Positions 8,423 to 38,359 of a DNA stretch of 64,000 nucleotides are shown piece by piece (within the stretch, counting starts at the first letter, position 1; every line of letters starts with the position of its first letter). A model generated the notes under the pieces. It was not told the DNA's origin. It saw only the letters and a program-made list of their open reading frames with translations, and ran no database searches. The stretch covers positions 186,001 to 250,000 of the forward strand of contig NZ_JTEO01000005.1 of assembly GCF_024500045.1 (NCBI RefSeq). Reading direction: 5' to 3'. Source of the stretch: Methanolobus chelungpuianus (GTDB lineage Archaea; Halobacteriota; Methanosarcinia; Methanosarcinales; Methanosarcinaceae). The position numbers and the translations under genes are program-made.

Positions 8423-9799
8423 ATGAGAAACAAAGGAAAAATCCTGTCCGGGAAGTCCCTTCTGCCTGAAAAGATAGTTTTACCTCTTCTGGTCCTTGCA
8501 GTCCTGATCATACTGTACCTCACTTACGGATACTTTATCCCGGAGAAGGAGGAAGTGCCTGTGAAGGCCGATATCATAGTGACTAAGAATCAGACCATAA
8601 CGGTCACGGAAGCAGGTACCGGGATAGTCATATATAATGGCACAAATGATCACGAGGCCATCAGGAAGGCGGTGAGCGCCATAGATCAGGGTATCGTACT
8701 GTTCGATGGGGGGAATTACAAGGTTGCTTCTTCCATTGTTCTCAACTCAGGCATTACAGTTATCGGAAAAGACTGCACGATAACAGGACACAGCGTATTC
8801 AGGATCTCTGATGCAGCAGATGTCACTGTAAAAGGGTTCGACTTCAGCAATCCGGATGAGAACTACGGCCGTCACTCCGGCACCAAGAGCATAATAGAAA
8901 TAACTAACAGCAGAGACTGCCAGATCCTGGAGAACACGTTCAGGAACTTTGGCGATTACGGCCTGTACGTATCAACACTCTCCCCGCTTCATCACAGCAC
9001 CCGCATAACCATAAAAGATAACCAGTTCCTTGATTATGGCTACTGCGGTATTATGATAGGAAAGCAGGCAAGCCAGATATTTGTCGAGGGCAACCTGTTC
9101 AGGGATATAAACACAAGGAAAATAAACCCCAACTCTTATGGGGTGGCCCTTGCAAAAGGCAGCAGCACATACAGGTATTCCGAATACATATACATCCGCA
9201 ATAATGTCGTCGAGAACAATCCCATGTGGGAAGGTATCGACAGCCATGGCGCAAACCATGTCTACATCCTGGACAATACCATAACGGACTGCAGGATACC
9301 GATTTCCGTTGCCCAGATAAACAGCGATAACCTCTATCCTGAACCCGTACATAATGTCACCATCAAGGGGAACTACATCAAAGGGAATATGAGCGCAACA
9401 AAACAGGACTCGGGCATCTATGTGATCGGTGGACGTGGTTCCGGAGGGCTCATCCAGCCATACAGGGATATTATCATATCCGGTAACACTGTCAGCGATG
9501 TGAACAACTGGCTTCACTCCAATGACGGGGGAATAGTGCTGATGAATGTCGACGGTGCCAGGGTTTTTGGCAACAGGATCTCGAATGTAGGAGGAACCGG
9601 CATCAATCTGGCAGGCGCGAACAATGTTCAGGTATATGACAATGACATAAAGAAGCTTGTCCGGATATCCAAGCCTATTTACGGCATTAGTGTGTCGCAG
9701 GCCAAGGATTCGTACATAATTGATATCAGGGACAACACAATAGACATCAGAAAGAACTGCATCTATTATGATGCCGATTATGCCTTCACCCACAAATAA
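8423..9799 (+). CDS. Membrane-anchored right-handed beta-helix protein
   Basis: A 458-residue protein with a short positively charged N-terminus, one membrane segment at about residues 17-38 (LPLLVLAVLIILYLTYGYF) and an outside domain made of parallel beta-helix coils. The helix carries the motifs shared by all members in this window: FSNPDENYGRH, QFLDYGYCGIMIGKQAS, WEGIDSHGAN and DVNNWLHSNDGG. Beta-helix proteins of this kind bind, cleave or epimerise polysaccharides. The strictly kept Asp-Ser-His could be catalytic, but this is inference. Its closest relative is the inverted gene at 27.1-28.4 kb. It is divergent from DUF354, and no strong ribosome site precedes the ATG. Confidence 0.78.
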   Translation: MRNKGKILSGKSLLPEKIVLPLLVLAVLIILYLTYGYFIPEKEEVPVKADIIVTKNQTITVTEAGTGIVIYNGTNDHEAIRKAVSAIDQGIVLFDGGNYKVASSIVLNSGITVIGKDCTITGHSVFRISDAADVTVKGFDFSNPDENYGRHSGTKSIIEITNSRDCQILENTFRNFGDYGLYVSTLSPLHHSTRITIKDNQFLDYGYCGIMIGKQASQIFVEGNLFRDINTRKINPNSYGVALAKGSSTYRYSEYIYIRNNVVENNPMWEGIDSHGANHVYILDNTITDCRIPISVAQINSDNLYPEPVHNVTIKGNYIKGNMSATKQDSGIYVIGGRGSGGLIQPYRDIIISGNTVSDVNNWLHSNDGGIVLMNVDGARVFGNRISNVGGTGINLAGANNVQVYDNDIKKLVRISKPIYGISVSQAKDSYIIDIRDNTIDIRKNCIYYDADYAFTHK

Positions 9800-10236
9800 G
9801 CTTCATGCCTGCTTTCAATAGGTTTTTAATGACCATGCTTTTTGGTTGAGAGCTTCTGCAGACGAAAAAGTCCTGTTCACACTGCAACATTTCCGGACTT
9901 CCGATAGCTACCTAAGGAATGGGAGTTTACTATTTTTATAATCACATCTCAAATTAATATGTTTGAAGCATGCTTATGCACAAAACCCCATTAAAACTTA
10001 TACTTTTTCTTCAATATGAGATAATTTATATATGAGACATAGTATATTTAGAAAAACGAGTAATAATATGTTTCAATAGATGATAATTTGCTCATCCTGA
10101 AATAACTCAGTAAAAGGAATTGCTGTAAAGTTTGGTTATGAGAAAGCAAATCACACTATCATGAACATATTTCTTGAACGGTTATATGAAAAACACGAAG
10201 GATAAAATTATAAAAAACACACAGTGGAGAGTAAAA
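9800..10236. promoter_or_regulatory. Upstream region of the first large beta-helix gene
   Basis: About 440 bp without a gene. AT-rich stretches include TTATACTTT near 10000 and TTTATATATGAG near 10026, both plausible TATA boxes roughly 200-240 bp before the ATG. This would give a long leader, as proposed for the two later paralogues. The 71-bp element they share is not clearly present here. Confidence 0.35.
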
Positions 10237-13200
10237 ATGGATCTTCGGAAAACAATCAGCATTTTAGCTGTTCTTTTGTTCCTTAACCTGTGTTTAGGAG
10301 CAGCAACTTCCGCAGCAGCCACCGGTGGCACTGGAGACTATTCGGTCAGCATCTCTAAAAGTTCCGGCACAACTGTTGTTAAAACCGCTGACGGAAAAAC
10401 CGTCTATACCGGCACCAACGATGCTGAAGCTGTCAGGTCAGCTTTGAACTCTATAAGCCAGGGTACTATCCTGTTCAACCCCGGAACCTACACCATAAGT
10501 TCACCAGTTGTGGTCAAGTCCAACATTGAGCTGGTAGGTAATGGTGCTGTAATGAAAGGTTACACGATATTCCGGATGAATGGAGCCGCCAACATTATTA
10601 TAAGAGGGTTCGAGTTCAGCAACCCTGATGCAAACTACCTTGCCCGCGCCAGCGGAGCAGGCCTTGTCGATATAATCAACAGCAAGGACATCACTGTAAG
10701 GGATAATACCTTCCGCAATTTCAGGGATTACGGAGTAAATGTTGCTGTCAGTTCCACATCCCACTACAACAGGAACATAAGCATAAAGAATAACAGCTTC
10801 CTTGATTATGGCTATGCCGGCGTGATGATAGGCAAGCAGTCCAACTATATCTACGTCGACGAGAACACCTTCAAGAACATAAACACCAGGAAACTTAATG
10901 CCAACGCATACGGCGTTGCCATTGCCAAGGGCAGTATCACCTACAAATACTCCGAATATATCTACATCAGGAAGAACCATATAGAAAACAACCCGGTATG
11001 GGAAGGCATAGACAGCCACGGTGCGAACTATGTGTATATCCTGGACAACACGGTGATCAACTGTAAGATACCTATCATAGTAGCGCAGATCAATAGTGAG
11101 GGTACATATCCCGAGCCAGTGCACCACGTGACCATTACAGGCAACTATGTCAGAGGAAACCTGAAGTCGGCAGACAAGCAGCACTCAGGTATACACGTAC
11201 TTGGCGCCCGCAACAATGTCCAGCCATACCAGAATGCGATAGTGTCCGATAACACCATAGCGGATGTCAACAGCTGGCTGGTCAGCGATGACGGAGGCAT
11301 AGTGCTCAGGGATGTAAAGGGAGGGACCATAGAGAACAACCAGATGTCAAACGTGGGCGGCACAGGCATATACCTGCTCAACGCGGACAGCCTCCTCATC
11401 CAGAACAACAATGTGAAGAGCATGTTCGGGATATCAGGCCCCACCAAGGGACTGAAGCTTATGCCCGTCAATAAGGACTGCACAATAACCGTTAAGAACA
11501 ACGTTTTTGACAGTTCTGTGGTGTACCACTCTTACGGATACAGCAACTGGGGCTATAAATATCGTGTGAGTGTGCTGAACCAGGACACCTCCAAGTTCTA
11601 TAACCCCAACGGAGTACTGCAGCTGACGATACTCAAAGAGCCGGTGCCTTCCGCACCTGCAAGCACAGATATGAACATCTACAAGAGCGGGACCACTACA
11701 ACGGTCAAGGCAGCCGATGGAAAGACACTCTACAGCGGAAACAGTGATATGGATGCGATTATGGCTGCAGTGAATGCGGCAGATAAGAACACCATTGTAT
11801 TCAATGAAGGTACATACAGCATCAGTTCCGCGATAGCCCTCAAGTCGGACATTACACTGCAAGGTAACAAGGCAGTGCTCAGTGGCTACAACATATTCAG
11901 GATGAATGGCCTGACAAATGTCACGGTCAGCGGTTTTGTGTTCAGCAACCCGGATGCACAATACCTCGGGCGTGCCGGGAACAACGGACTCATTGATATC
12001 CAGAACAGTAATAATGTGATTGTCAGGGATAACACCTTCCGTAACTTCAGGGACTTCGGCATATTCCTCGCTACCCGTACAGCATCCGACAGCAATAAGC
12101 AGATCACGATCAAGAACAACCAGTTCCTTGATTACGGTTATTGTGGAATTATGATAGGAAAGCAGGCAAGCCAGCTCCATATAGAGGAAAACGTCTTCAG
12201 GAACATCAATACCAGAGCCATGTATGCAAACTCCTATGGCATTGCTGTCATGAAAGCAGGCAGTTCATCGGCGTACTCTGAGTACATCTACATCCGCAAC
12301 AATGTCCTTGAGAACAACCCCACCGGAGAAGCTATAGACAGTCACGGAGCCAACTATCTTTTCATTGAGAACAACGTCATCACAGACTGCAGGATGCCGA
12401 TGTATATCGTCCAGGTCAACGATGACGATGCATATCCAGCCGCGCTCAGCAACCTGTCCGTGACAGGCAATACCATCAATGGAAACTATGCCGCTGAAAA
12501 ACAGGACCCGGGCATCTATGTCTTCGGAGGCCGCAACAAGGCAGGAACAGTGACAAAGCCGTATCAGAATGTCGATATATCAGGCAATAAGATAAAGGAT
12601 GTCAATAACTGGCTGCTGGGCAATGACGGTGCCATCGTCATGAAGGACGTTGGCGGGGCAATGCTCTCAGGCAATGAGATATCAGGTGCAGGAGGTACAG
12701 GCATCAACCTGCAGAACTCAGGTGATGTGATCGTGCAGAACAACATCATCAGCGGTCTCAGAACACTGTCAGGGCCCACCATGTGTATCAAGATGCTGCC
12801 CGTGGACAAGAAATACAATGTGCTGCTCAGGAGCAATGACCTTGATGCCTCTGCAAGCTATCACGCATATTCATACTCCACTTTCGGGTATGTATACCAG
12901 GTAAGCGTGTCTGACCAGGATGTATCTAAATTCTATTTTGCCAACGACGGCATTGAACTTATCTTCCTGGACGAGCCTTCTGGCAGTGAACTTCCGGTCG
13001 CTGATGCCAGTACAAGATATGTTAAGGCAGGCACCCCCGCTACGTTCTATGGAGGGGAATCCAGCGACAGATACGGGATAATCTCATACTCGTGGGACTT
13101 TGATGCATCCAATGGTATCCAGAAGGATGCCACCGGCATGACGGTCACACGTACTTTCGAGAAGACCGGCAGGTATGTCGTTACCCTGACAGTGAGCAAT

Positions 13201-13248
13201 GTGAAAGGTCAGGCGGCCACAGACACTTTAACAGTGATCGTAAGCTGA
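10237..13248 (+). CDS. Secreted protein with two beta-helix modules and a PKD domain
   Basis: 1003 residues from the ATG at 10237, chosen because GGAGAG precedes it and a classical signal peptide follows (KTISILAVLLFLNLCLGA, cleaved near ATSAAA). Module A covers about residues 34-440 (NSFLDYGYAGVMIGKQSN, WEGIDSHGAN, KQHSGIHVLGAR). Module B covers about 478-880 (QFLDYGYCGIMIGKQAS, GEAIDSHGAN, KQDPGIYVFGGR). The C-terminal ~85 residues form a PKD domain (SYSWDFDASNG, TVTRTFEKTGRYVVTLTV), typical of archaeal surface proteins that contact polymers or neighbours. No C-terminal anchor is visible, so it may be released or bound through PKD. Activity is unknown; a polysaccharide lyase or C5-epimerase-like role is possible. 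Confidence 0.8.
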   Translation: MDLRKTISILAVLLFLNLCLGAATSAAATGGTGDYSVSISKSSGTTVVKTADGKTVYTGTNDAEAVRSALNSISQGTILFNPGTYTISSPVVVKSNIELVGNGAVMKGYTIFRMNGAANIIIRGFEFSNPDANYLARASGAGLVDIINSKDITVRDNTFRNFRDYGVNVAVSSTSHYNRNISIKNNSFLDYGYAGVMIGKQSNYIYVDENTFKNINTRKLNANAYGVAIAKGSITYKYSEYIYIRKNHIENNPVWEGIDSHGANYVYILDNTVINCKIPIIVAQINSEGTYPEPVHHVTITGNYVRGNLKSADKQHSGIHVLGARNNVQPYQNAIVSDNTIADVNSWLVSDDGGIVLRDVKGGTIENNQMSNVGGTGIYLLNADSLLIQNNNVKSMFGISGPTKGLKLMPVNKDCTITVKNNVFDSSVVYHSYGYSNWGYKYRVSVLNQDTSKFYNPNGVLQLTILKEPVPSAPASTDMNIYKSGTTTTVKAADGKTLYSGNSDMDAIMAAVNAADKNTIVFNEGTYSISSAIALKSDITLQGNKAVLSGYNIFRMNGLTNVTVSGFVFSNPDAQYLGRAGNNGLIDIQNSNNVIVRDNTFRNFRDFGIFLATRTASDSNKQITIKNNQFLDYGYCGIMIGKQASQLHIEENVFRNINTRAMYANSYGIAVMKAGSSSAYSEYIYIRNNVLENNPTGEAIDSHGANYLFIENNVITDCRMPMYIVQVNDDDAYPAALSNLSVTGNTINGNYAAEKQDPGIYVFGGRNKAGTVTKPYQNVDISGNKIKDVNNWLLGNDGAIVMKDVGGAMLSGNEISGAGGTGINLQNSGDVIVQNNIISGLRTLSGPTMCIKMLPVDKKYNVLLRSNDLDASASYHAYSYSTFGYVYQVSVSDQDVSKFYFANDGIELIFLDEPSGSELPVADASTRYVKAGTPATFYGGESSDRYGIISYSWDFDASNGIQKDATGMTVTRTFEKTGRYVVTLTVSNVKGQAATDTLTVIVS

Positions 13249-13259
13249 GCATCCCCCGG

Positions 13260-13296
13260 CAGGCTGGGGACAGCAAGCTCCCAGCCTGGCTTTTTT
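13260..13296 (+). terminator. Hairpin plus T-run terminator
   Basis: A 9-bp stem (CAGGCTGGG at 13260-13268 with CCCAGCCTG at 13280-13288), an 11-nt loop and six T residues from 13291. It sits just after the stop of the beta-helix/PKD gene and before the convergent small membrane gene. Confidence 0.65.
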
Positions 13297-13304
13297 ATCT
13301 AATT

Positions 13305-13529
13305 CTAATAGCTCCATCTTTTAAGCGTTATTTCCCTGTATGCTGACATCGCAGATACCAGGGATGCCACCAGCCATCCCAGTCCCGCAATGAGATCCTT
13401 CTGTAAGAAGAGGCCTATTGCCAGGGCAAAGCATATTACCGTTGCAAGTGCATAGAGATCAAGGCTCTTGCTCATTTTCATGATCTCTCTGATGCTATTC
13501 TTTTTTGTCTTTTTCGTATCCGGATTCAT
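13305..13529 (-). CDS. Small two-segment membrane protein
   Basis: 74 residues from the ATG at 13529, which is preceded by GGTGGAG; a longer frame upstream lacks such a site. The first 25 residues are basic and polar, followed by two hydrophobic stretches (LYALATVICFALAIGLFL and LIAGLGWLVASLVSAM) and a short basic tail. The family is not recognised. It is convergent with the preceding beta-helix gene and divergent from the next one. Confidence 0.6.
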   Translation of the reverse strand: MNPDTKKTKKNSIREIMKMSKSLDLYALATVICFALAIGLFLQKDLIAGLGWLVASLVSAMSAYREITLKRWSY

Positions 13530-13878: not shown

Positions 13879-14011
13879 AAAACGGAAATACATGCGTAAT
13901 TTTTGCATTCCTGATGCCGAACAGGCAAGATCCTGCGTGGAAATATTGCACACAGGTTGACCTGAACAATATAAAACCCTATTTGTGAAAAACAGATTTC
14001 AGAGGTCAAAA

Positions 14012-17000
14012 ATGTATGTTAAAAGAAAAACAATAGGCCTTTTATTGGCTTTTTTAGTCCTTAATATAAGTTTAGGGGCAGCGCTCTCTTCAGCAGCCGT
14101 CGGCGACGGCTCAACAGAGGTGAACTACTCAGTAAGCATATCTAAAGACGCCGGCATTACGCGGGTACAGACAATCGACGGCAAGATCCTATACAGCGGC
14201 ACCAACGATGTACAGGCCTTTAATACCGCGGTCAATGCTATCAGTAAAGGTACTATTCTTGTCAATCAGGGAACGTACAATATCGCCACTCCCGTTGCGC
14301 TCAAGTCTAATATTGAACTTGTAGGAAAGAATGCAATAATAAAGGGATACAACGTATTTACGATAACCAGTGCGACAAACGTCACAGTAAGGGGTTTCGA
14401 GTTCAGTAACCCTACTGCAACATATACTGCAATTGCTTCCAGCAGAGGCTTTATCAACATCGTCAACAGCAACAACTGTCTGATAGAGGGGAACACCTTC
14501 CGTAACTTCAGGGATTACGGAGTCTACGTAGGAGTCAGTTCCACATCCCACTACAACAGGAACATAAGCATAAAGAATAACAGCTTCCTTGATTATGGTT
14601 ATGCTGGCGTGATGATCGGTAAGCAGTCCAACTACATATATGTGGAGGATAACACCTTCAAGAACATCAATATGAGGAAGGTCAACGCCAATGCATACGG
14701 GATAGCAGTTGCCAAGGGAAGCAATTCCTACAAACACTCAGAATATATCTATATCAGGAACAACTGGATAGAGAACTCTCCCGTATGGGAAGGTATCGAC
14801 AGCCATGGTGCAAACCATGTTTATATCCAGGATAATACAGTCATCAACTGTAAGGTGCCCATAGCGGTCTCCTACCAGACCAATGAAGGCACATATCCTT
14901 TGCCAGTTCACACCATAGTCATTACCGGAAATTATGTAAAGGGGAACATGAACGCCCCTGAGAAGCAGCACTCCGGCATACACGTACTTGGTGCACGCAA
15001 CTACGCAAAACCATATACAAACGTGACTGTATCGGGCAACACTGTCGTCGATGTCAACAGCTGGCTTGTCAGCGATGACGGAGGAATTGTTCTCAGGGAT
15101 GTTGACGGGGTCGTCGTCGACAACAATCTCATTACCGGCGTGGGCGGAACAGGCATTAACCTGAACAATGTGAACAATGCGCTGGTGCAGAACAATGATG
15201 TCAAGAACCTGAAGAAGATATCAGGCTCAACGATGGGTGTCAAAATGTCACCTGTTGCAAGGAGCTTTACCGCCACAATAAAGAACAACAAGTTTGACAG
15301 CACTGTGAACTATCATGGATATTCTTACCCGAAGAGTAGTAACGTCTATACCGTGACCCTGGTCAACCAGGTACAGTCAAAGTTCACAGGCGCTCTGAGG
15401 CTTAATGTTCAGACAGACTCAAATGCCATTACGTCACCCTACACCCCACCACTTACACCACCACAGCCTGGCGCCGTAAATGAGGATACATCAGATAACA
15501 CTGATAACACTGATCTCACCAACTCATGGATAGGCATTTCCAAGAACGCCGGCACCACTGTTGTCAAGACAGAGGATGGTACCGTAGTGTACAGTGGAAG
15601 CAATGACGTTGAAGCTGTCAAAGCTGCCCTGAACAACGCATATCAGGGAACTATAGTTTTCGAGGAGGGAACCTATGCTATAAGCTCGGCTATTGCTCTC
15701 AATTCAGACACGGAACTGGTAGGGAACAATGCTGTGCTCAGTGGATACAATATATTCACCATAAAGGATGAAACAAACATCACCATAAGAGGATTCGAGT
15801 TCAGTAACCCTGACGAGGAGTACCTCGGACGTGCCGGGAACAACGGACTCCTTGATATCCAGAACAGCGAGAACATCACTGTCCGGGACAACACCTTCCG
15901 CAACTTCAGGGACTTCGGCATATACCTTGCCACCCGCACAACATCCGATCACAACAAGCAGATCACTGTAAGGGACAACCAGTTCCTTGATTACGGTTAT
16001 TGTGGAATTATGATCGGCAAGCAGGCAAGCAATGTAACTGTTGAGGACAACCTGTTCAGGAACATCAATGTAAGGGCCATGTACCCGAACTCCTACGGAG
16101 TGGCGGTCATGAAATCAAGCAGCGCATATGAGTATTCCGAGTATGTGTATATCCGTGGGAACACTATCGAGAACAACCCCGTATCAGAGGGTATCGACAG
16201 TCACGGAGCTAACAACCTCTACATTGAGAACAACACCATCAGGGATACCAGGATACCCATCATCCTTATCCACGTCAACGATGATGATAACTATCCTGAG
16301 GCACTGCATAATCTCTCAGTGACCGGAAACTCCGTTATAGGAAACCTCAGCCTTGACAAACAGGATGCAGGTATCTATATCTTCGGAGGCATCAGCAAGG
16401 ACGGAACCGTCGTTCAGCCTTACCAGGCAGTGAAGGTCTCCGGTAACAACATTACTGATGTCAATAACTGGCTTCTCAATGAAGGCGGAGCCATCATGCT
16501 GCGTAACACAGACGGAGCTGTCATTGAGAACAATGAGATCTCCGGGGCAGGCGTCGCAGGTATCAACCTGGATAATGCGGACAATGTCGTCATGCAGAAC
16601 AACTCCGTCAGTAGCATGAGAGATATCTCAGGCTCCTCCACCATTGGAGTAAAGTTGCTGGCAAACGGTACGGACTTCAATGCAACCCTCATAAGCAACA
16701 CCTTCGACAGCTCCGTGGCTTACCATGCCCGTGCAGAGAGCGAGTCCGGAAATGTCTATGAAGTGAGCGTAAGGGACCAGGATACATCCATGTTCGATAA
16801 CTCGAACGATGGCATGAGACTGGTGGTTCCGGAGGATACTGAACCTTCAGAATCTTCAGTGGAGGGGCCGGTAGCAAATGCAGGAGGCAGGTTAACTGAT
16901 GACGGGAACACCGTGGTGTTCTATGGAGGCGAATCCTCCGACAGTTATGGAATAGTCAGCTATTCATGGGACTTTGATGCATCCAACGGCATCCAGAAGG

Positions 17001-17122
17001 ATGCCACCGGCATGAAGGTCACACATACTTTCGAGGAACCCGGCAATTATGTTGTCACCCTTACAGTGACAAACATGAAGGGGCAGATAAGCACGGACAC
17101 TATAACAGTGATCGTGAAGTAA
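14012..17122 (+). CDS. Secreted protein with two beta-helix modules and a PKD domain, paralogue
   Basis: 1036 residues from the ATG at 14012, preceded by AGAGGTCA; the GTG at 13985 has no such site. Signal peptide RKTIGLLLAFLVLNISLGA, then module A at about 37-450 and module B at about 505-910. They are joined by a Pro/Thr/Asp-rich linker (TPPLTPPQPGAVNEDTSD), unlike the shorter linker of the paralogue at 10.2 kb. The C-terminal PKD domain (YSWDFDASNGIQKDATG) is almost identical to that paralogue's. The IDSHGAN motif occurs in both modules. A 65-bp stretch at 14534-14598 is identical to 10747-10811. Exported polysaccharide-binding or -modifying protein by family; activity not known. Confidence 0.8.
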   Translation: MYVKRKTIGLLLAFLVLNISLGAALSSAAVGDGSTEVNYSVSISKDAGITRVQTIDGKILYSGTNDVQAFNTAVNAISKGTILVNQGTYNIATPVALKSNIELVGKNAIIKGYNVFTITSATNVTVRGFEFSNPTATYTAIASSRGFINIVNSNNCLIEGNTFRNFRDYGVYVGVSSTSHYNRNISIKNNSFLDYGYAGVMIGKQSNYIYVEDNTFKNINMRKVNANAYGIAVAKGSNSYKHSEYIYIRNNWIENSPVWEGIDSHGANHVYIQDNTVINCKVPIAVSYQTNEGTYPLPVHTIVITGNYVKGNMNAPEKQHSGIHVLGARNYAKPYTNVTVSGNTVVDVNSWLVSDDGGIVLRDVDGVVVDNNLITGVGGTGINLNNVNNALVQNNDVKNLKKISGSTMGVKMSPVARSFTATIKNNKFDSTVNYHGYSYPKSSNVYTVTLVNQVQSKFTGALRLNVQTDSNAITSPYTPPLTPPQPGAVNEDTSDNTDNTDLTNSWIGISKNAGTTVVKTEDGTVVYSGSNDVEAVKAALNNAYQGTIVFEEGTYAISSAIALNSDTELVGNNAVLSGYNIFTIKDETNITIRGFEFSNPDEEYLGRAGNNGLLDIQNSENITVRDNTFRNFRDFGIYLATRTTSDHNKQITVRDNQFLDYGYCGIMIGKQASNVTVEDNLFRNINVRAMYPNSYGVAVMKSSSAYEYSEYVYIRGNTIENNPVSEGIDSHGANNLYIENNTIRDTRIPIILIHVNDDDNYPEALHNLSVTGNSVIGNLSLDKQDAGIYIFGGISKDGTVVQPYQAVKVSGNNITDVNNWLLNEGGAIMLRNTDGAVIENNEISGAGVAGINLDNADNVVMQNNSVSSMRDISGSSTIGVKLLANGTDFNATLISNTFDSSVAYHARAESESGNVYEVSVRDQDTSMFDNSNDGMRLVVPEDTEPSESSVEGPVANAGGRLTDDGNTVVFYGGESSDSYGIVSYSWDFDASNGIQKDATGMKVTHTFEEPGNYVVTLTVTNMKGQISTDTITVIVK

Positions 17123-17854: not shown

Positions 17855-20356
17855 ATGGCTATCAGATGGAAAACCACCACAAACCTTTTAATGGTTATAT
17901 TGTTCCTTAACTTAAGTTTGGGGGCAACAGCTTCTGCTGCTGTTCTTACGGACAGTCCTGCAGAGCTCAACGAATCAATAAGCATATCTAAAGACGCCGG
18001 CACTATTAGTGTCCAGATGACTGATGGAAAGGTCATATACACCGGAACCAATGACGTGGAGGCCGTAAAAGCTGCGGTCAATGCAATCGATGAAGGTGTG
18101 ATCCTGTTCAACCCCGGAACATACTCCATCAGCTCACCTGTGGAACTGAAGTCCAACATCGAACTTGTTGGAGATAATGCAGTTCTGCAAGGATACATCG
18201 TATTCACGATAACCGGCAAGACAGATGTCACAATAAGAGGATTCGAATTCACAAATCCTACTGCATCCTACACTGCAGTTGCCGCGACCAAGGGCCTTAT
18301 TGACATCACCAACAGCGAGAACCTTGTAATAGAGGACAATACGTTCCGCAATTTCAGGGATTACGGCATCAACATTGCAGTAGGCTCAACTTCCCACTCC
18401 AACGAGAATATAAGCATCAGGAACAATGAGTTCCTTGATTATGGTTACGCCGGAGTGATGATATGGAAACAGTCCAATTACATATATGTGGAGGATAACA
18501 CCTTCAAGAACATCAATGTAAAGAAAGTGAATGCAAACGCATATGGCATTGCACTTGCAAAGGGAAGCAATTCATACAAGCACTCTGAGTACATATACAT
18601 CAGGAACAACCATATCGAGAACAACCCCGTGTGGGAAGGTATCGACAGCCACGGTGCGAACAACGTGTACATCCAGAACAATACAGTCATCAACTGTAAG
18701 GTGCCCATAGCAGCCTCCTACCAGACAAGCGAGGGCACATATCCCCTGCCACTGCACACCATAGTCATTACCGGGAACTATGTCAAAGGGAACATGAACT
18801 CCCCCGACAAACAGCACTCCGGCATACATGTGCTCGGTGCACGCAACAATGCGGGACCGCACATGAATGTGACCATCTCCGACAACATCATAGAGGATGT
18901 CAACAGCTGGCTTGTCAGCGATGACGGAGGCATAGTGCTCAGGGATGTTGACGGAGGCACCATTAACAACAACACCATAACCGGCGTGGGCGGAACAGGC
19001 ATCAACCTGAACAATGCCAACAACCTGGTGCTTGAAGACAATAAGGTCACTAACATCAAGAGAATATCAGGCTCCACATTAGGTGTTGAGATGATACCTG
19101 TTGCAAAGGACTTCAGTGTCACCATGAAGAACAATGAGTTCGACGCCTCTGTGGACTATGATGCGTTCTCAACCCCTGGCTACGGCCACACCTATGCTGT
19201 AAGCGTGGAGGGACAGGACACATCAAAGTTCGCTACTTCCAATGGAGCACTGAAAGTAACGACCCTGAACGAAGCTCAGAATACCGCCCCTGCGGTGAAC
19301 AATGCTGGTGTCACAGACTCCAGCATCTCTATTTCTAAGAAAGGAACTACAACCACTGTCCTTACGGGTAGCGGGGAGACCGTATATATCGGGAACGCCG
19401 ACACCGACGCACTAAAGGCTGCAGTCGATGCTGTGGAAAGTAACGGAACAATCACTTTTGAGAACGGGACCTATTCTGTAAGCTCACCCATAGCCCTTAA
19501 GTCAGATATCAGTCTCATAGGCAATGACGCCATCGTTACCGGATACACCATATTTACAATAACCGACCAGAACAATGTCACCATAGAAGGTCTCGAGTTC
19601 AGCAACCCTGATGAGGAGTACCTGGACCGTGCCGGGAACAATGGGCTCATCTACATCCAGAACAGCAGCAATGCCTTTATCCGGGAGAACACCCTGCGCA
19701 ATTTCAGGGACTTCGGAATATACCTAGGGACCAGCTCCGCATCAGACAGCAACCAGAACATAACCATTGAGGATAACCGGTTCCTTGACTACGGCTATGC
19801 CGGTGTGATGATAGGCAAAGGAGCCAGCAATGTGACCGTTGAGGACAATACCTTAAGGAACATCAATGTCAATGGAACGAATTCAAATGCTTATGGCATT
19901 GCGGTGATGAAGGGAAGCAGTACCTACCCATATTCAGATCAGGTTTACATCCGCAACAATACCATTGAGAACAACCCGGCCGGCGAGGCTATCGACAGTC
20001 ACGGAGCCAACTACCTCTACGTTGAGAACAACACCATCAGAGATACCAGGACACCTATGTTCTTAGCCCATATCAATGACGACGACAGGTATCCCGTACC
20101 ACTGCATCACCTGACCGTAACAGGCAACACGATCGAAGGGAACTTTGATGCAGAGCAGCCTGCAGGCATCCATATTCTCGGCGGTGCGAAGGCCTCGGAC
20201 AGCGTGACAAAGCCATACATGAACGTAACTGTATCAGGCAACACTCTTGCAGATACCGCTGACTGGAATAACGGAGAAGAAAAAGCAATATTACTGGAAA
20301 ACGTTGATGCCCCTGTAATTGAGAACAATGTGTTCTCCGGCGCAGACGGCAAGTAA
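17855..20356 (+). CDS. Secreted protein with two beta-helix modules, no PKD domain
   Basis: 833 residues from the ATG at 17855, preceded by AAGAGGTCA exactly as in the paralogue at 14012. Signal peptide up to about residue 29 (LLMVILFLNLSLGATASAA), module A at about 37-440 and module B at about 488-833. It ends inside or just after module B (ENNVFSGADGK) with no PKD domain. Either the C-terminus was lost or the family has a two-module form. Module A has WKQSN where the others have GKQSN; module B is mixed, with GYAGVMIGKGAS. IDSHGAN is kept in both modules. Probably surface-exposed and glycan-interacting. Confidence 0.78.
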   Translation: MAIRWKTTTNLLMVILFLNLSLGATASAAVLTDSPAELNESISISKDAGTISVQMTDGKVIYTGTNDVEAVKAAVNAIDEGVILFNPGTYSISSPVELKSNIELVGDNAVLQGYIVFTITGKTDVTIRGFEFTNPTASYTAVAATKGLIDITNSENLVIEDNTFRNFRDYGINIAVGSTSHSNENISIRNNEFLDYGYAGVMIWKQSNYIYVEDNTFKNINVKKVNANAYGIALAKGSNSYKHSEYIYIRNNHIENNPVWEGIDSHGANNVYIQNNTVINCKVPIAASYQTSEGTYPLPLHTIVITGNYVKGNMNSPDKQHSGIHVLGARNNAGPHMNVTISDNIIEDVNSWLVSDDGGIVLRDVDGGTINNNTITGVGGTGINLNNANNLVLEDNKVTNIKRISGSTLGVEMIPVAKDFSVTMKNNEFDASVDYDAFSTPGYGHTYAVSVEGQDTSKFATSNGALKVTTLNEAQNTAPAVNNAGVTDSSISISKKGTTTTVLTGSGETVYIGNADTDALKAAVDAVESNGTITFENGTYSVSSPIALKSDISLIGNDAIVTGYTIFTITDQNNVTIEGLEFSNPDEEYLDRAGNNGLIYIQNSSNAFIRENTLRNFRDFGIYLGTSSASDSNQNITIEDNRFLDYGYAGVMIGKGASNVTVEDNTLRNINVNGTNSNAYGIAVMKGSSTYPYSDQVYIRNNTIENNPAGEAIDSHGANYLYVENNTIRDTRTPMFLAHINDDDRYPVPLHHLTVTGNTIEGNFDAEQPAGIHILGGAKASDSVTKPYMNVTVSGNTLADTADWNNGEEKAILLENVDAPVIENNVFSGADGK

Positions 20357-20487: not shown

Positions 20488-22041
20488 TCACAGGTTGGTG
20501 CCCATTGTCTTGTAACACTCCCTCATGTCAAAGAGCATTGCAAAAAGGATCATCTGAAGTCCTGCGATGAAGAACAATGCACCTACAAGCGGCAGGCTGG
20601 CAGGCACAGGCCATCCGGTAAGCAGTCCTGAGAGCAATATATACAATCCGGTGAGCACTCCCACAGGCAGGAATAGCATCCCGAACACGTAGAAGAAGAT
20701 CAGCGGATGGAAACTCATTACTGAGTATTTGACCTTGAGGCGCCACAGGAATTTCCTGAAGAGCATGACAGATACCTTGGACATGTATCTCCCGTACTTT
20801 ATGCTGGACTTCTCTTCACCATAGTGTGCAGGCATTGTGACGTCAAGGGTCCTGAACCCGAAAGTGTTGAGCTTGACAAGCATATCGTTGCAATAGCCGT
20901 AATAAGTGTAAAGGCTGTCAATACCGATATTGGACAGCGCATGCTTGGAGATGGCAGTATAGCCGTTCTGCGGATCCATTATATGCCAGTATCCGCTCCC
21001 GATCTTCGTGACAAGGCTAAGCATGTTGTTACCCAGCAATCGCCAGGAGCTCATGCCGCAGCGAAACTCGTCACAGCTTAAGCGGTTACCTTTGGTATAA
21101 TCGGCCTTGCCTTCGATGATGGGCATCAGCAGGCCGGGCAGGTGCGCTGGATTCATCTGGTTGTCCCCTCCCATCACCACCACAATATCCATGTCCTCCT
21201 GAAGGGCACGTTTATAGCCGTGCTTTATTGCGGCACCCACGCCCTGGTTCTGCTCATGTGTAATGACAAACAGCCTCGGATCATTGATAGAGCCCAGCAC
21301 CTCTGCGGTCCTGTCCGTACTGGCATCGTTGATCACATATATCCTTTTTATATAAGCCGGAATGCCCCCTATAGTTGTGCGTATCAGTTTCTCTTCATTA
21401 TATGCAGGCACTACCACTCCGATCTTGTACTTATAGAAAGCATCGGTGTTCCTTTCATGAACCTTCCTGACATTCACTTCCTTCAGCTTGAAGCCTGCAT
21501 TCAGTGCATCCTTTACAAGACAGAGCTCCTCAGGAAGGCTATCCTCGGTGAAGGTAAGAGCTGCCGTGGAAAGCGACGAGAAGGCTGTAAAACCGATGTT
21601 TTCCGAGAGATACTTAGAGAGATACTTTCCATCAGAATCAAGATAAGGAGCAGCATCAATGAGGGACTGCAGATCACGGTTAAGTCCCGCACCGGGGTAA
21701 TCGTTATAACCTACGACCGCATCCGCCTCGCTCCACATGACCGGAGTGATAAGCTTTGGGATGGCATCCGGGTCATACAGGTCATCCGCATTGATTATTA
21801 TGACAGGACCATTCCCGAACTGCTGCGAATATTTGAAGGCTGTCCTGAGTGTTTCCATTTTACCTTTGTGTTCATTATGCTTTACTACGTGTGCATCCAT
21901 TTTCTCAGCTATGTATGCAGTGGAATCTGTACTTCCGTCATCCACAACTACTATATTGTCAACATATAGGCCTGCCTTTTTGATGACGTCATGTATATTG
22001 GCCTCGTCGTTATAGGCAGGGATTATACCTGTAACTCCCAT
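20488..22041 (-). CDS. Tandem GT2-GT2 glycosyltransferase with C-terminal membrane segments
   Basis: 517 residues from the ATG at 22041, preceded by GGGGGAG. Two GT2 catalytic domains lie in one chain. The first (about 1-200) has VVDDGSTDST and INADDLYDP; the second (about 208-440) has VINDASTDRT and VMGGDNQMNP. Two or three hydrophobic segments end the protein. GT2 enzymes use nucleotide sugars, and the second domain resembles dolichyl-phosphate sugar synthases and DPM1-like enzymes. The first domain could be a second transferase or a regulatory copy; both keep acidic metal-binding motifs. It acts at the inner membrane face, supplying lipid-linked sugar or extending a glycan. Confidence 0.82.
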   Translation of the reverse strand: MGVTGIIPAYNDEANIHDVIKKAGLYVDNIVVVDDGSTDSTAYIAEKMDAHVVKHNEHKGKMETLRTAFKYSQQFGNGPVIIINADDLYDPDAIPKLITPVMWSEADAVVGYNDYPGAGLNRDLQSLIDAAPYLDSDGKYLSKYLSENIGFTAFSSLSTAALTFTEDSLPEELCLVKDALNAGFKLKEVNVRKVHERNTDAFYKYKIGVVVPAYNEEKLIRTTIGGIPAYIKRIYVINDASTDRTAEVLGSINDPRLFVITHEQNQGVGAAIKHGYKRALQEDMDIVVVMGGDNQMNPAHLPGLLMPIIEGKADYTKGNRLSCDEFRCGMSSWRLLGNNMLSLVTKIGSGYWHIMDPQNGYTAISKHALSNIGIDSLYTYYGYCNDMLVKLNTFGFRTLDVTMPAHYGEEKSSIKYGRYMSKVSVMLFRKFLWRLKVKYSVMSFHPLIFFYVFGMLFLPVGVLTGLYILLSGLLTGWPVPASLPLVGALFFIAGLQMILFAMLFDMRECYKTMGTNL

Positions 22042-22556
22042 TTGTACTCCCCCGTTAGTATCATAGAAAGTATTCAAGCCCCCTTGAATACTGGCTCCGG
22101 AAGTAGACAGAGATATGGCAACTGCTCTCCAGTACCTATGCTTTCCAGTCCACTCCAATATACAAACATTGCTCTACACTTATAAGATTATCGTGTGGTA
22201 ACGACGAAAAGAATTCTTCCGGGGCAAATTAACTAAGTTTGAGCTGGTTTCCAATAAGGAATATAAGCTTAGTATTAATTTTTATGAGCATATCCAGTAA
22301 AGATTCCTGAAAGTTTCAGGAAAATCTGGCCGCATTTTCCCCGGGATCAGGCCAATATGATGCGGCACGCCGACAAAAAGCTCTTTTCGATAATTAATCT
22401 CATTTTTACTTTTTATTGCTCAGAATGTGCACTCAGAATGCGCGCAACTAAGGGATATTATTCTGAAATATGGACAGTAAGTATCTTACTTTCCACTGCA
22501 CTCAGGAACCAGATGTAAAAACAGCGAAACAAACCAACAGTACGTTTCCCGTATCC
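22042..22556. other. Gene-free region upstream of the GT2 fusion
   Basis: About 510 bp. It must contain the minus-strand promoter of the GT2 fusion, and AT-rich stretches lie near 22250-22290. No convincing gene or RNA is seen. Confidence 0.35.
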
Positions 22557-23474: not shown

Positions 23475-23740
23475 GTTCCTTTTTACACCAGCCGGCAATG
23501 TTCATCTAGCCCAGGAAATAAAAATACTTCCGGATACGGCAAAATGTTGTTAATGCAACTCAAATAATAAGAGTTTTGTGCATTCATCATTTATTGCATC
23601 TTGTGTCATGACAATTAATTTGAAGAAGCGTCTTTTTATTAAGGTAAATTAATAAAAGATTTTGGATATACAGGAAGTTTTAAATAAAACTGAAATTAAT
23701 ACAAAAGATACTCAACTGATATGTCAAAAGAGGGGTTGTT

Positions 23741-24613
23741 GTGAAACAACAAAAAGCATCACGATCTATCTATCCGGGCCACTCACTGAAACTCTGTGGC
23801 ATATTATCATGTTCGATTTTGATAGCCTTGCTCCTGATCTCTGCAGCCAGCGCCAGCACTACCATAAGCAGTGTGACGCCTGCCAATCCGGCAGTCGGCG
23901 ATGAGATAGTCATCAAGGGTTACGGCACTCCAGACAGTGTACTGAACGCCTACACTTCCTTTACGGTGGAAGTGCCTGTCAGGGAGGGCAAATACGAGTA
24001 TGAGCTCAAGAACATCAAAGTACCTGCCGGAACCGACACTTTCTCAGTCGATGCCGAAAAGGTGACATTGCTGAAAGTAGAGGTCAAGAAGTTAGGAATA
24101 CCCTATTCACGTTCAGCCATAGCGGACAGTGCAGGGCTTGCAAGCATCTCGCAGTCATATGTGTTGCCCTTCACATATAAGGTGGCCATAACCGGAGAGG
24201 CGACGGAAGCAGAAGTGAACCTGACCCTCAAAGGCTTATCAAAGGTCAGGACTGATTCGACCGGTTACTTCGAGTGCTCCTATAAGACCAACGGCGTACC
24301 GGCCGGCCTTTTCGTTGTCGATATAGACGGGGAGATCATCGAGATAGAACTCCGTGAAAAGAAGGCTGAGAAAGAGAAGAGATCGGGTAAGACAGGCACT
24401 GAGCTGACAATAGTGCAGGCATCGGAGCTTGGCAAGCGTTCCGAGTTACAGGCACCTGAAGAGGATGCAGGACCGGAGGACACCGAAGAGGAGCTTGCCG
24501 CACCCCAGGAGAACATACAGCCTGTAGAAGGGAATGTGTCCTTGCTGGAAGCACAGCCAAAACCCGGCCCATTTCAAAGCATTGTCAACTGGCTGAAGGG
24601 TCTGTTCAAGTAA
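23741..24613 (+). CDS. Secreted Ig-like protein with acidic C-terminal linker
   Basis: 290 residues starting at a GTG with GAGGGG six bases upstream. The signal peptide runs to about residue 39 (ILSCSILIALLLISAASAS). TTISSVTPANPAVGDEIVI begins the first beta-sandwich domain, of the kind seen in IPT/Ig-like surface proteins, and a second similar domain follows (residues about 140-205). The last 80 residues are charged and Glu-rich and end in a short amphipathic helix (IVNWLKGLFK) that might touch the membrane. No enzyme motif is seen. Confidence 0.6.
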   Translation: MKQQKASRSIYPGHSLKLCGILSCSILIALLLISAASASTTISSVTPANPAVGDEIVIKGYGTPDSVLNAYTSFTVEVPVREGKYEYELKNIKVPAGTDTFSVDAEKVTLLKVEVKKLGIPYSRSAIADSAGLASISQSYVLPFTYKVAITGEATEAEVNLTLKGLSKVRTDSTGYFECSYKTNGVPAGLFVVDIDGEIIEIELREKKAEKEKRSGKTGTELTIVQASELGKRSELQAPEEDAGPEDTEEELAAPQENIQPVEGNVSLLEAQPKPGPFQSIVNWLKGLFK

Positions 24614-24930
24614 CCCTTTAACCTTAACCTTATTTTCACAGCCTTCGGAGAGTTTCTTGGCTCTCGGCATTCCTTCACCAGAGAACCATGTTCCGGATAC
24701 AGACCTGATCCCAAAGGACATCGGAGCTTTACCCTGATGATGCCGTTAAAACTATATACAGTACAGATGCATATTATATTTTAGCATATATAAAATAATG
24801 ACAATGCATCTTGCCTTCTCTTTAAAAGAGAGTAGAAGAGGACCTTCAGGCAGAGCGGGAAACTGGATGCATCATTGTGGCCAGGAGCCATAGAGGCAGA
24901 ATTAAATAGATGGCAGGGGAGTTAAAAACA
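24614..24930. promoter_or_regulatory. Intergenic region with likely TATA box for the epimerase gene
   Basis: About 315 bp without a gene. TTTTAGCATATATAAAATAA near 24779-24798 is a strong archaeal TATA candidate about 140 bp before the next start. Confidence 0.4.
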
Positions 24931-25893
24931 ATGTCATATAACCAGTTAATGAACAGGAAAATACTTATCACAGGCGGAGCAGGGTTTATCGGCAGCCACC
25001 TGACAGACCTCATGGTTAAAAAAGGGAATGAAGTCACTGTTTTTGACAATATGACCTCGGGAAGTCTCGGGTTCATAGACGAGCATCTTGGCAATGACGG
25101 TTTCAATTTCATTGAGGGCGATCTCCTTGATACTGAAGAGCTTGCCAGGGCCTGTGAGAATGTGGACCTCATATTACATGTCGCCGCAAACCCGGACGTA
25201 AGACTGGGAGCAACGGATACGGAAGTGCATTTTGAACAGAACATCACAGCTACCTACAACGTCCTGGAAGCCATGCGCCTGAAGGGGATCAGGGATATTG
25301 CTTTCACTTCCACATCGACTGTGTATGGAGAGGCATCCATCATTCCCACGCCGGAGAACTACGGCCCGCTTATCCCGATCTCACTCTACGGGGCTTCCAA
25401 GCTGGCCTGCGAGGCCCTGATAACCTCATATTCACATACATTTGACATGAGGTCGTGGATATTCCGCTTTGCCAATATCATCGGTCCCAGAAGCACCCAT
25501 GGCATCATAGTGGATTTTATCGAGAAACTTAAGCACGATCCAACACAGCTGGAGATACTGGGTGACGGCATGCAGTCCAAATCATACCTCCATGTGAAGC
25601 ATTGTGCTGATGCCATGGATTTTGCCATTGAGAACAGCTCCGAGGACGTAAACATATTCAATATCGGCTCAGAGGACACCACCACCCCTACACGCATCGG
25701 GGAGATAGTGGTAAAAGAGATGGGCCTGGAAAATGTGGATTTCAGCTACACCGGCGGAAAACGCGGCTGGAAAGGCGATGTACCTAAGATGATGCTGTCC
25801 GTGGATAAAATTAAGGAGCTTGGATGGAAGCCGGAGTGGGGCTCTGAGAAGTGTGTGAGGGAAACCGTGCGCTCCCTGCTAAAAGGCGATTGA
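24931..25893 (+). CDS. NAD-dependent nucleotide-sugar epimerase/dehydratase (SDR)
   Basis: 320 residues from the ATG at 24931, with AGGGGAG nine bases upstream; an ATG at 24910 lacks such a site. Extended SDR fold: GGAGFIGSH at the start binds NAD, TSTSTVYG supplies the catalytic Ser/Thr, and YGASK near residue 150 supplies Tyr and Lys. Closest in pattern to UDP-glucose/GlcNAc 4-epimerases; the exact sugar cannot be read. Stands alone between unrelated genes. Likely feeds surface-glycan synthesis. Confidence 0.85.
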   Translation: MSYNQLMNRKILITGGAGFIGSHLTDLMVKKGNEVTVFDNMTSGSLGFIDEHLGNDGFNFIEGDLLDTEELARACENVDLILHVAANPDVRLGATDTEVHFEQNITATYNVLEAMRLKGIRDIAFTSTSTVYGEASIIPTPENYGPLIPISLYGASKLACEALITSYSHTFDMRSWIFRFANIIGPRSTHGIIVDFIEKLKHDPTQLEILGDGMQSKSYLHVKHCADAMDFAIENSSEDVNIFNIGSEDTTTPTRIGEIVVKEMGLENVDFSYTGGKRGWKGDVPKMMLSVDKIKELGWKPEWGSEKCVRETVRSLLKGD

Positions 25894-26129
25894 AGGGCAT
25901 TGTCCTATAGGAAGCCGTCCCTTTTTTCCTCGGCCTTCCGAATGAACGGAAGGTGTGGTCAGGACAGCACTTTGTTCAGAACAGGGAAGCCACCATGTGT
26001 TCTTATAGTAAAGACCGAATACATATAACCGGGCAATTATTGGTAAAGATATCCGCATACTGACCTTTATACGCCCCTCAGGTGAATATCTTGCGCCTCT
26101 GATACTTTTCGCATATTGCTGAGGTTACC

Positions 26130-27056
26130 ATGGCTGACGAGCGTCCAGGTATTTTCGAGATGATACGCGCCTACGGGCTCCTTGCCATGCTGGCACCACT
26201 GACTATAAGCACTTCTGTTGCTGTGATCGCAACAGGAGAACTTGACCCCTTGGGCCTCTTCTTTGCAGCCGTTCTCGGTTTCAGCATGCATGTCTCCATG
26301 AACATCTATAACGATATATATGATACCAAACAGGGTTGCGATACCCTGGACTCCGGGAAGAGCATATTCAGCGGCGGATCCGCGGTGATGGTGAGAGATC
26401 CCGGACTCGAGGAAAGGATGTTCACAATAGCCAGGGGCGGTCTTGTCGTGGGTTTCCTGGGAGCGCTGGGGCTTATCCACAACAGGCCGGATATGTGGCC
26501 GATCTTTATCTTTATTTTTGTCACAGCCGCCTTCCTGAGCAAGTATTATACTGCAGAGCCATTCAAGCTGGCATACAGGGGCCTGGGTGAGATCGCAGTA
26601 TGGGCAGGTTTCGGACCCTTCGCAATACTGCTGTATGCCGCCGCTCAGGGCATTCCCTTCCACCCGCTGGTGGTTCCTATAATGCCTGTCACTGGCTTGA
26701 GCACGCTTATATTCGCCTGGGGCGGAGAGATGACAGACATGCCCTACGATGAAAAGGCAGGAAAGCGCGGGCTTGTCCTCAGGATGGGGCTCCGGAAGAG
26801 TATATATGGCCTTCTTATCCTGCATCTGTTGCTCATAGCCAATGTTCTTCTTGCTGCTTACCTGTTTGCCGGGGGCTGGATACTGCTTCCGGCACTCATA
26901 CCCTACCTGCTGCTCCTGCCCGGCGTATTCACCTTGCTGGAAAAGGGGCTGGAAAGCCGGGAAAAGCTCTACGAGGGAACAAGGCTGAACTTCTTCAGCT
27001 TCGTGTTATTCTCGGTGTCGATAATGGCAGGGTTCCTCGCTATGGCCCTGCTCTAA
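26130..27056 (+). CDS. UbiA family prenyltransferase (MenA-like)
   Basis: 308 residues with about eight membrane segments and both UbiA aspartate motifs: NIYNDIYDTKQGCD near residue 56 and DMPYDEKAGKR near residue 200, which bind Mg2+ and prenyl diphosphate. The layout resembles 1,4-dihydroxy-2-naphthoate prenyltransferase. In methanogens this family attaches prenyl chains to aromatic or lipid acceptors, and methanophenazine synthesis is one possibility; that is speculation here. ATG with GAGGT upstream. Convergent with the beta-helix gene that follows. Confidence 0.82.
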   Translation: MADERPGIFEMIRAYGLLAMLAPLTISTSVAVIATGELDPLGLFFAAVLGFSMHVSMNIYNDIYDTKQGCDTLDSGKSIFSGGSAVMVRDPGLEERMFTIARGGLVVGFLGALGLIHNRPDMWPIFIFIFVTAAFLSKYYTAEPFKLAYRGLGEIAVWAGFGPFAILLYAAAQGIPFHPLVVPIMPVTGLSTLIFAWGGEMTDMPYDEKAGKRGLVLRMGLRKSIYGLLILHLLLIANVLLAAYLFAGGWILLPALIPYLLLLPGVFTLLEKGLESREKLYEGTRLNFFSFVLFSVSIMAGFLAMALL

Positions 27057-27099
27057 AATAACGGGTTACGGGTCCTTGTTCCCGGTAGTTGCCAGCACC

Positions 27100-28437
27100 C
27101 TAGAAGACACAGTTATCCGTGCTATCCACCTTATTATCCCTTATGTCTATGCTGTAAATGTCCTTTACATTGGATACGCTCACACTGCATATCGGCTTGG
27201 ATATCTTCACAAGGTTGCGGATATCATTCTCATATACCAGGACATCGTTAGCGCCAGCCAGGTTGACCCCGGTACCTCCTACGTTCGAGATAGTGTTGTT
27301 GTATACCTGAGCACCTTCTACATGCATCAGCACTATTCCCCCGTCATTGGATTGCAGCCAGTTGTTCACATCGGTGATGATGTTATCGGATATGATAACA
27401 TCCCTGTATGGCTGGATGAGCCCTCCCGGACCGCGCCCCCCTATCACATAGATGCCTGAATCCTGCAGTGATGCGCTCATGTTCCCTTTGATGTAGTTCC
27501 CCTTGATGGTGACATTATGTACGGGTTCAGGATAGAGATTGTCACCGTTTATCTGGGCCACCGATATTGGGATCCTGCAGTCCGTTATGGTGTTGTCAAG
27601 GATGTAGACATGGTTTGCACCATGGCTGTCGATACCTTCCCATCTGGGGTTGTTCTCCAGGGTATTATTGCGGATATAGATATACTCGGAATAGCTGTAT
27701 ACCGTGCTGCCTTTTGCAAGGGCCACCCCATAAGAGTTGGGGTTCACCTTCTTTGCATTCATGTTCCTGAACAGGTTGTCATCCACATATATATTACTGG
27801 CCTGCTTTCCTATCATGATCCCGCAGTAGCCGTAATCGAGGAACTGGTTGCCCTTGATGATAATATCACTGTTATGGTGCTGCAGGGACCGTGTGGAAAG
27901 GTATAGCCCGTAAGCACTGTAATTGCGGAATGTGTTATCCAGTATTTGGCAGTTCCTGCTGTTCGTTATCTCCACGATGCTATTGGTGCCTGAGTGGCGG
28001 CCATAGCTCTCATCCGGGTCACTGAAATCGAATCCCTTTATCACGACATCCGAAGCATCACTTATCCTGAATATCCTGTACCCGATGAGAGAGCAATCGT
28101 TGCCTATCAGTGTGATATCCGATCCGAGGCCTATCGGCGAGGTGACATTATAGGTTCCCTTCTCGAACAGGATCACGCCCTTACCAACCGAATCAACTGC
28201 CACCCTGATTGCCTTTTCGTCGTCGTTTCCCTCGTACAGGACCGCCCCGGTGCTGTTCTGTATCACAGTGACCGTCTTGTCTTTCGTGATGACTATATCA
28301 GGCACCTCATCCCTGTCCTGGATAAGCTGCACATAGGCTAGATAGAGCATTATAAGGACTGCAATCACCAGAAGAGGATAAAAGATCTTTCCTGCCGAAC
28401 GGATCCTGCCGGAAAAGGCTGTTTCATTCATTCTCAT
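27100..28437 (-). CDS. Membrane-anchored right-handed beta-helix protein, inverted paralogue
   Basis: 445 residues with the same plan as the protein at 8.4-9.8 kb: basic N-terminus, one membrane segment (FYPLLVIAVLIMLYLAYV) and an outside beta-helix with QFLDYGYCGIMIGKQAS, WEGIDSHGAN and DVNNWLQSNDGG. The DNA is highly similar to that gene but in the opposite orientation; 27482-27537 equals the reverse complement of 9332-9387. The gene begins with ATG AGA ATG AAT and lacks a clear ribosome site. Likely glycan-binding or -modifying at the cell surface. Confidence 0.78.
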   Translation of the reverse strand: MRMNETAFSGRIRSAGKIFYPLLVIAVLIMLYLAYVQLIQDRDEVPDIVITKDKTVTVIQNSTGAVLYEGNDDEKAIRVAVDSVGKGVILFEKGTYNVTSPIGLGSDITLIGNDCSLIGYRIFRISDASDVVIKGFDFSDPDESYGRHSGTNSIVEITNSRNCQILDNTFRNYSAYGLYLSTRSLQHHNSDIIIKGNQFLDYGYCGIMIGKQASNIYVDDNLFRNMNAKKVNPNSYGVALAKGSTVYSYSEYIYIRNNTLENNPRWEGIDSHGANHVYILDNTITDCRIPISVAQINGDNLYPEPVHNVTIKGNYIKGNMSASLQDSGIYVIGGRGPGGLIQPYRDVIISDNIITDVNNWLQSNDGGIVLMHVEGAQVYNNTISNVGGTGVNLAGANDVLVYENDIRNLVKISKPICSVSVSNVKDIYSIDIRDNKVDSTDNCVF

Positions 28438-38357: not shown

Positions 38358-38359
38358 CG

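Follow-up and report, generated by a model that had tools for sequence, protein, structure and literature searches.

Anchored and exported beta-helix proteins of Methanolobus chelungpuianus as candidate lyases of the cell's own exopolymer, with an active-site motif like that of phage depolymerases

In this study, a stretch of 64,000 nucleotides from the archaeon Methanolobus chelungpuianus (contig NZ_JTEO01000005.1, positions 186,001 to 250,000, hereafter the window) was analysed with respect to a family of five genes, BH1 to BH5, at 8423-28437. Open reading frame translations and alignment showed that these genes carry eight copies of one right-handed beta-helix module of ~400 residues. BH1 and BH5 each consist of a membrane anchor and one module, BH4 of modules A and B, and BH2 and BH3 of modules A and B followed by a PKD domain; an initial annotation of this DNA had listed the same five paralogues, eight modules and architectures, and the translations, profiles and alignment bore it out. 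The other modules share 45-71% identity with the first, and the whole genome holds no further copies. The module proteins belong to PF13229 Beta_helix (68-144 bits, curated cut-off 25.9) and to PF05048 NosD (44-72 bits, cut-off 23.6). The features of the family are as follows.

8423-9799, + strand: BH1, membrane anchor and one beta-helix module (open reading frame and translation; PF13229 E 6e-20)
8468-8533, + strand: hydrophobic N-terminal anchor of BH1, residues 16-37 (by reading the translation)
8570-9796, + strand: anchored-class module of BH1 (alignment; AlphaFold model)
9236-9256, + strand: IDSHGAN of BH1, module residues 223-229 (translation)
10174-13248, + strand: BH2, signal peptide, module A, module B and PKD (translation, profile search)
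10336-11643, + strand: BH2 module A (alignment)
11008-11028, + strand: IDSHGAN of BH2 module A (translation)
11659-12963, + strand: BH2 module B (alignment; AlphaFold model)
12334-12354, + strand: IDSHGAN of BH2 module B (translation)
12991-13242, + strand: BH2 PKD domain (PF18911 E 1e-13)
13985-17122, + strand: BH3, signal peptide, module A, module B and PKD (translation, profile search)
14120-15424, + strand: BH3 module A (alignment)
14795-14815, + strand: IDSHGAN of BH3 module A (translation)
15518-16834, + strand: BH3 module B (alignment)
16193-16213, + strand: IDSHGAN of BH3 module B (translation)
16865-17116, + strand: BH3 PKD domain (PF18911 E 3e-16)
17855-20356, + strand: BH4, signal peptide, module A and shortened module B, no PKD (translation, profile search; orthologues equally shortened)
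17960-19279, + strand: BH4 module A (alignment)
18641-18661, + strand: IDSHGAN of BH4 module A (translation)
19316-20353, + strand: BH4 shortened module B (alignment)
19991-20011, + strand: IDSHGAN of BH4 module B (translation)
27100-28437, - strand: BH5, membrane anchor and one module (translation, profile search)
27103-28302, - strand: anchored-class module of BH5 (alignment)
27613-27633, - strand: IDSHGAN of BH5 (translation)
28321-28389, - strand: hydrophobic N-terminal anchor of BH5, residues 17-39 (by reading the translation)

Module B of BH4 lacks the final coils (345 of 433 profile positions covered). Since the orthologues in other genomes stop at the same point, this is not a local frameshift, and the same end in all orthologues seen suggests that a shorter beta-helix is being kept.

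Module residues were numbered from window position 8570. The motif IDSHGAN is found in 8/8 window modules, always with a Glu three residues ahead of the Asp, as the initial annotation had said of an acidic residue before it. Full-length relatives were found in 8 of 27 Methanolobus genomes, and a tree of the modules separated an anchored, an A and a B class, all of them old and with orthologues in different species. Among the 49 non-redundant modules of the genus, D224 and S225 are invariant (49/49 each), E221 is kept in 48/49 and H226 in 46/49, so that conservation of the motif is not due to chance; K165 (49/49), Y256 (49/49) and W314 (48/48) are also conserved. E221 is replaced by Gln in a single module, a B module. 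The three modules with Leu in place of H226 all belong to multi-module proteins of genomes G064 and G040, and wherever such a protein is complete another of its modules retains the His. Because the rest of the module is kept after the His-to-Leu change and intact modules stand beside it, the His is unlikely to be needed for folding, and a structural role of H226 appears unlikely. The IDSLGAN modules at L049:12446-17080 and L014:3-1196 are candidate natural dead-site forms. The second motif that had been proposed, FLDYGY, was confirmed within the window as FLDYG in 8/8 modules but varies across the genus (FLDFGY, FLEYGH, FYDYGY, FTYFGY), and the G-rich turn said to follow it proved to be a beta-strand (CGIMIGKQ; strand 159-163 in the AlphaFold model).

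AlphaFold models were obtained for the anchored-class module (predicted local distance difference test, pLDDT, 85.5) and for module B of BH2 (pLDDT 92.4), and their closest solved neighbours were polysaccharide lyases and C5-epimerases, in line with the comparison that the initial annotation had proposed. Using VIA-align, the anchored-class model placed the A-modules of AlgE6 and AlgE4 (Z 36 and 35) and RbmB (Z 34) at or near the top, while the B-module model gave RbmB with Z 35.5 and AlgE with Z 34. The AlgE A-module superposes with a root-mean-square deviation of 2.1-2.2 over ~315-320 residues, which places the module in the A-module fold, and RbmB is nearly collinear with it over ~365 residues (model 1-366 on chain 32-396). 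RbmB, the biofilm-dispersal lyase of Vibrio cholerae (9OZD/9OZL), is the best or near-best match, with likeness at the level of the fold and 18% identity. It degrades the exopolymer of its own maker (PMC11637428), and it shares with the role proposed here for the modules that it acts on the exopolymer of the producing cell. Sf6 and other tail spikes, PL6 lyases and the beta-helix adhesin PfbA rank next, at most a few Z units lower, and GH28 and GH87 enzymes are also among the neighbours. Since lyases, epimerases, tail spikes and an adhesin lie so close together, the fold by itself does not single out one function. The best sequence match of the module profile in the PDB was AlgE4 (E 0.001 and 0.0006), and a search of a viral structure library brought up numerous low-identity tail spikes but nothing closer.

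According to the strand pattern of the sequence, I223 and S225 point inward and D224 and H226 outward. Variation on the outward face is low at coils 5-7, where the stack M162-A193-D224 is invariant in 51/51. This pattern would put the Asp and His on the helix face that bears the catalytic residues in lyases and epimerases, and it gives the expected outward direction for the substrate groove that the initial annotation had asked about, as a position derived from the pattern and not from a structure.

The N-terminal ~70 residues of the module match proteins in two other genera of the Methanosarcinaceae (E down to 5e-19), and a profile built from those relatives also hit proteins in Methanosarcina and in a small number of further families in the phylum, which keep [IV]-[DN]-[STA]-H at the matching place. 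The more general form [IV]-[DN]-x-H occurs there in the other Methanosarcinaceae, in Methanosarcina, in other families of the phylum and in one phage tail spike. In this wider family a Tyr, then Arg-His one coil before [DN]-x-H, is present in 26/26 retrieved frames, many of them near-identical copies. Several members show a weak match to the Rider domain of the K1 lyase together with C-terminal disaggregatase repeats (PF06848). The wider-family profile with Arg-His matches the phage proteins LKA1gp49 (4RU4, E 2.8e-11) and AP22 lyase (4Y9V, E 1.5e-9). For LKA1gp49, a catalytic site made up of His494, Asp497 and His499, close to Arg459, has been proposed (PMC5701251); chain numbering identifies Arg459 with the Arg of Arg-His. 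The archaeal spacings of Tyr, Arg-His and [DN]-x-H are close to those of AP22 (Y-21-R-38-H), for which the profile alignment pairs the archaeal His with a later His and GADMHGN at the expected spacing was spotted by eye. They are also close to those of the Klebsiella K1 lyase (7W1C; Y311, R333, H373), whose Tyr311, Arg333/His334 and His373 show the same spacing as the wider family; this enzyme was paired by residue spacing only, and the weak profile alignment leaves Tyr and Arg-His out of register, possibly by one coil. H373A of the K1 lyase is inactive and Y311A keeps 0.4% activity (PMC8822698).

Profiles of the Methanolobus modules themselves hit phrog_2234, a family of phage tail spikes (E 3e-15 and 3e-16), and a Stenotrophomonas phage tail spike carries NAYG...GIDTH as they do. 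The tail spike of phage Jojan60 is 32% identical over a quarter of the module, and its beta-helix matches no other phage. The modules share with LKA1gp49, AP22 and K1 lyases a right-handed beta-helix with D-x-H on its outer face, the outer face being assigned by strand pattern. Unlike the phage lyases, they are cell-encoded, multi-module, anchored or PKD-bearing, and located beside polymer synthesis genes. Because of the wider-family and tail-spike matches, IDSHGAN is best read as a phage-type lyase D-x-H in a branch without Arg-His and Rider; the Methanolobus branch would be linked to the wider family by the shared N-cap, motif, spacing and context. A viral origin of the Methanolobus copy was considered and rejected, as no relative occurred among the viral contigs searched, and a plasmid search also gave no module relatives.

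The genes around the modules, which touch on what the modules might act upon, are as follows.

136-1695, + strand: polytopic membrane protein without family match, frame continuing upstream (homologue beside distant beta-helix genes in genome G019)
1713-2726, - strand: FemAB-like protein 1 (TIGR03019 E 9e-14, under its cut-off)
3066-4997, + strand: AsnB-type amidotransferase (TIGR01536 E 1e-151; syntenic)
5052-6128, - strand: FemAB-like protein 2 (TIGR03019 E 3e-20, under its cut-off; syntenic)
6040-7113, - strand: polysaccharide/sugar deacetylase, distantly VimE-like (NF053580 E 1e-28, under its cut-off)
7114-8268, - strand: DUF354 protein, putative glycosyltransferase, divergent neighbour of BH1 (PF04007 E 2e-25)
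20488-22158, - strand: two-domain GT2 glycosyltransferase closing the conserved block (PF00535 E 5e-43; syntenic)

The order FemAB, AsnB, FemAB2, deacetylase, DUF354, BH1-BH4 and GT2 is the same in those Methanolobus genomes whose sequence extends far enough around the modules. The deacetylase occurs in exactly the same 8/27 Methanolobus genomes as the modules (one-sided Fisher 4.5e-7, kinship ignored), and DUF354 orthologues of at least 65% identity in exactly the 8 module-bearing genomes. Distant beta-helix genes adjoin DUF354 genes in G019, G007, G083 and G283 and FemAB-like genes in G283, G348 and G019. The modules sit in a polymer-making block that is conserved across genera. Of the surrounding uronic-acid and glycan genes invoked by the initial annotation, this block stands, while the UDP (uridine diphosphate)-diacetamido-glucuronate genes at 57-61 kb are unlinked by distribution: a connection with the modules was rejected because the Gfo/Idh gene is absent from module-bearing G040 and G064 and present in most module-less genomes.

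A second copy of the membrane protein at 136-1695, 82% identical, lies 5 kb upstream (G000:C5:180872), and homologues occur in polymer loci of other genera. In a close relative (locus L084 of genome G055), whose AsnB is 96% identical, AsnB, FemAB1 and the membrane protein are present, but modules, deacetylase and DUF354 are not; the contig ends at AsnB, so that module loss and an assembly gap are indistinguishable there.

We favour, at about even confidence, the reading that the modules are extracellular polysaccharide lyases acting on the exopolymer of the cell itself. The family would cut the polymer made by the surrounding genes and thereby trim, clear or disperse it. The D224/H226 site would face outward into a substrate groove, where H226, oriented by D224, may serve as Bronsted acid or base in a beta-elimination at a uronic-acid residue. 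A conserved basic residue close by (K165, K196 or R210) would neutralise the carboxylate in place of the Arg-His of the phage enzymes, and Y190 or Y158 may be the second acid/base. BH1 and BH5 would remain tethered to the membrane and BH2-BH4 would be exported; A and B modules may differ in specificity, as in the two-module AlgE enzymes. Several points weigh against the lyase reading. The Arg-His pair 36-40 residues before the His is absent from the Methanolobus modules, which have N-[SA]-Y there, and no match to the Rider/insertion domain was found in the module proteins, nor room for it in the alignment. Only the N-terminal ~70 residues show strong homology to the wider family, the motif region being matched by spacing and by eye; the groove position of D224 and H226 comes from the strand pattern, and lyase activity is a prediction. 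No uronic-acid gene is tied to the block, yet UDP-sugar dehydrogenases occur in every genome checked, and with these nucleotide-sugar dehydrogenases a host polymer containing uronic acid is possible. The D-x-H position also aligns with N-x-H of GH110 galactosidases, so that the motif alone does not specify a lyase.

This last point bears on an unlikely alternative in which the modules are glycoside hydrolases of the exopolymer, E221 (and D224) being the acid/base and H226 a substrate-binding residue. E221 is nearly invariant in the genus (48/49) and present in the g5 and g7 relatives, GH28 and GH87 are among the fold neighbours, and DD-x-[IT]-N-x-H of GH110 would put an Asp at the place of E221, although the alignment is weak and the modules show one acid (E221) where GH110 has its paired catalytic Asp. 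Against this, the relatives from Methanosarcina, genome G283 and phage keep D/N-x-H but not E221, there is no obvious candidate for a second catalytic acid, and the nearest folds are lyases and epimerases. Non-catalytic proteins that bind the exopolymer and tether it to the cell as a scaffold are, in our estimate, quite unlikely; membrane anchors, PKD domains and tandem modules would suit them, the adhesin PfbA has a similar fold and three modules have lost the His, but these losses occur only beside intact modules, the corresponding site is catalytic in phage relatives (PMC5701251, PMC8822698), and a binder does not obviously need a His in 46/49 or near-invariant Asp/His in modules otherwise about half identical.

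We regard as improbable a C5-epimerase, with or without lyase side activity, that edits uronic acids in the finished polymer as AlgE does on alginate. AlgE A-modules are the closest or second-closest fold, AlgE enzymes are likewise secreted paralogues with one or two A-modules, and GIDSH resembles G-[FL]-D-P-H of AlgE/AlgG, at the same place within a coil, whose His is the proposed base (PMC8824271; PMC4444821). The modules, however, have Glu where AlgE has its catalytic Tyr (E-[GA]-I-D-S-H-G against Y-G-[FL]-D-P-H-[DE]) and have no R-modules, carrying PKD domains instead, and no alginate genes are present here. By our coil count the AlgE motif lies in coil 4 and the module motif in coil 7, while the structural alignment is near end-to-end and fits a coil-by-coil register; positional homology is therefore not claimed. 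The profile alignment failed to place the two motifs together, and direct homology of IDSHGAN with the AlgE DPHE was rejected, since profile alignments join only the N-cap and the last coils and the coil count sets the motifs three coils apart. Of the initial suggestion of a lyase or epimerase, the fold neighbours, the outward Asp/His by strand pattern and the polymer block agree with it, and the reaction may be that of a lyase, an epimerase or a hydrolase.

To our knowledge, only a handful of archaeal enzymes have been described that act on the matrix of the producing cell by cutting or editing it, the disaggregatase being the main one. The initial statement that no archaeal system of this form had been described was too strong, since the disaggregatase of Methanosarcina is a described archaeal polymer-cutting enzyme (PMC12369344) and its repeat domain recurs in distant relatives of the modules. 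Like the module proteins, the disaggregatase kin (PF08480, PF06848) have a beta-helix, are secreted by Methanosarcinaceae and are linked to surface polymers. Membership of the modules in the PF08480 disaggregatases was ruled out, because PF08480 had no match in the module proteins or anywhere in this genome and the Tyr/Arg-His/D-x-H set was absent in 12/12 PF08480 proteins examined.

Elsewhere in the window, 28944-30020 encodes a secreted protein whose PEF-CTERM sorting signal (TIGR03024, E 4e-9) points to an archaeosortase route beside the polymer block. The AT-rich region at 31896-40414 (GC content 29-35%), with a transposase, a flippase, a likely polymerase and glycosyltransferases, resembles a recently acquired polysaccharide cluster. 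The region 45510-48040 holds 2.5 kb of short frames only, including a small winged-helix-like regulator (46697-47035), and searches for RNA elements covering it found no RNA family or tRNA. At 51626-56806, the translation of a 1726-residue frame reads as a histidine kinase core with receiver domains and numerous PAS-like repeats.

In conclusion, the cells can probably cut or edit their own surface coat. What appears new here, judged from sequence comparison, is a multi-module archaeal enzyme set that the cell itself encodes and either anchors or releases, with kinship to phage depolymerases and distinct from the PF08480 disaggregatase. A more specific idea, which we hold as doubtful, is an archaeal system that edits the finished surface polymer in place with tethered and released one- and two-module enzymes, a counterpart of the AlgE set with a D-x-H in which the phage-type Arg-His has been replaced. 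The shared active-site motif would tie archaeal surface proteins to phage tail-spike depolymerases and bears on the origins of depolymerases. With named residues (D224, H226 and E221), natural His-to-Leu variants and a co-occurring gene block, matrix processing by methanogens becomes directly testable.

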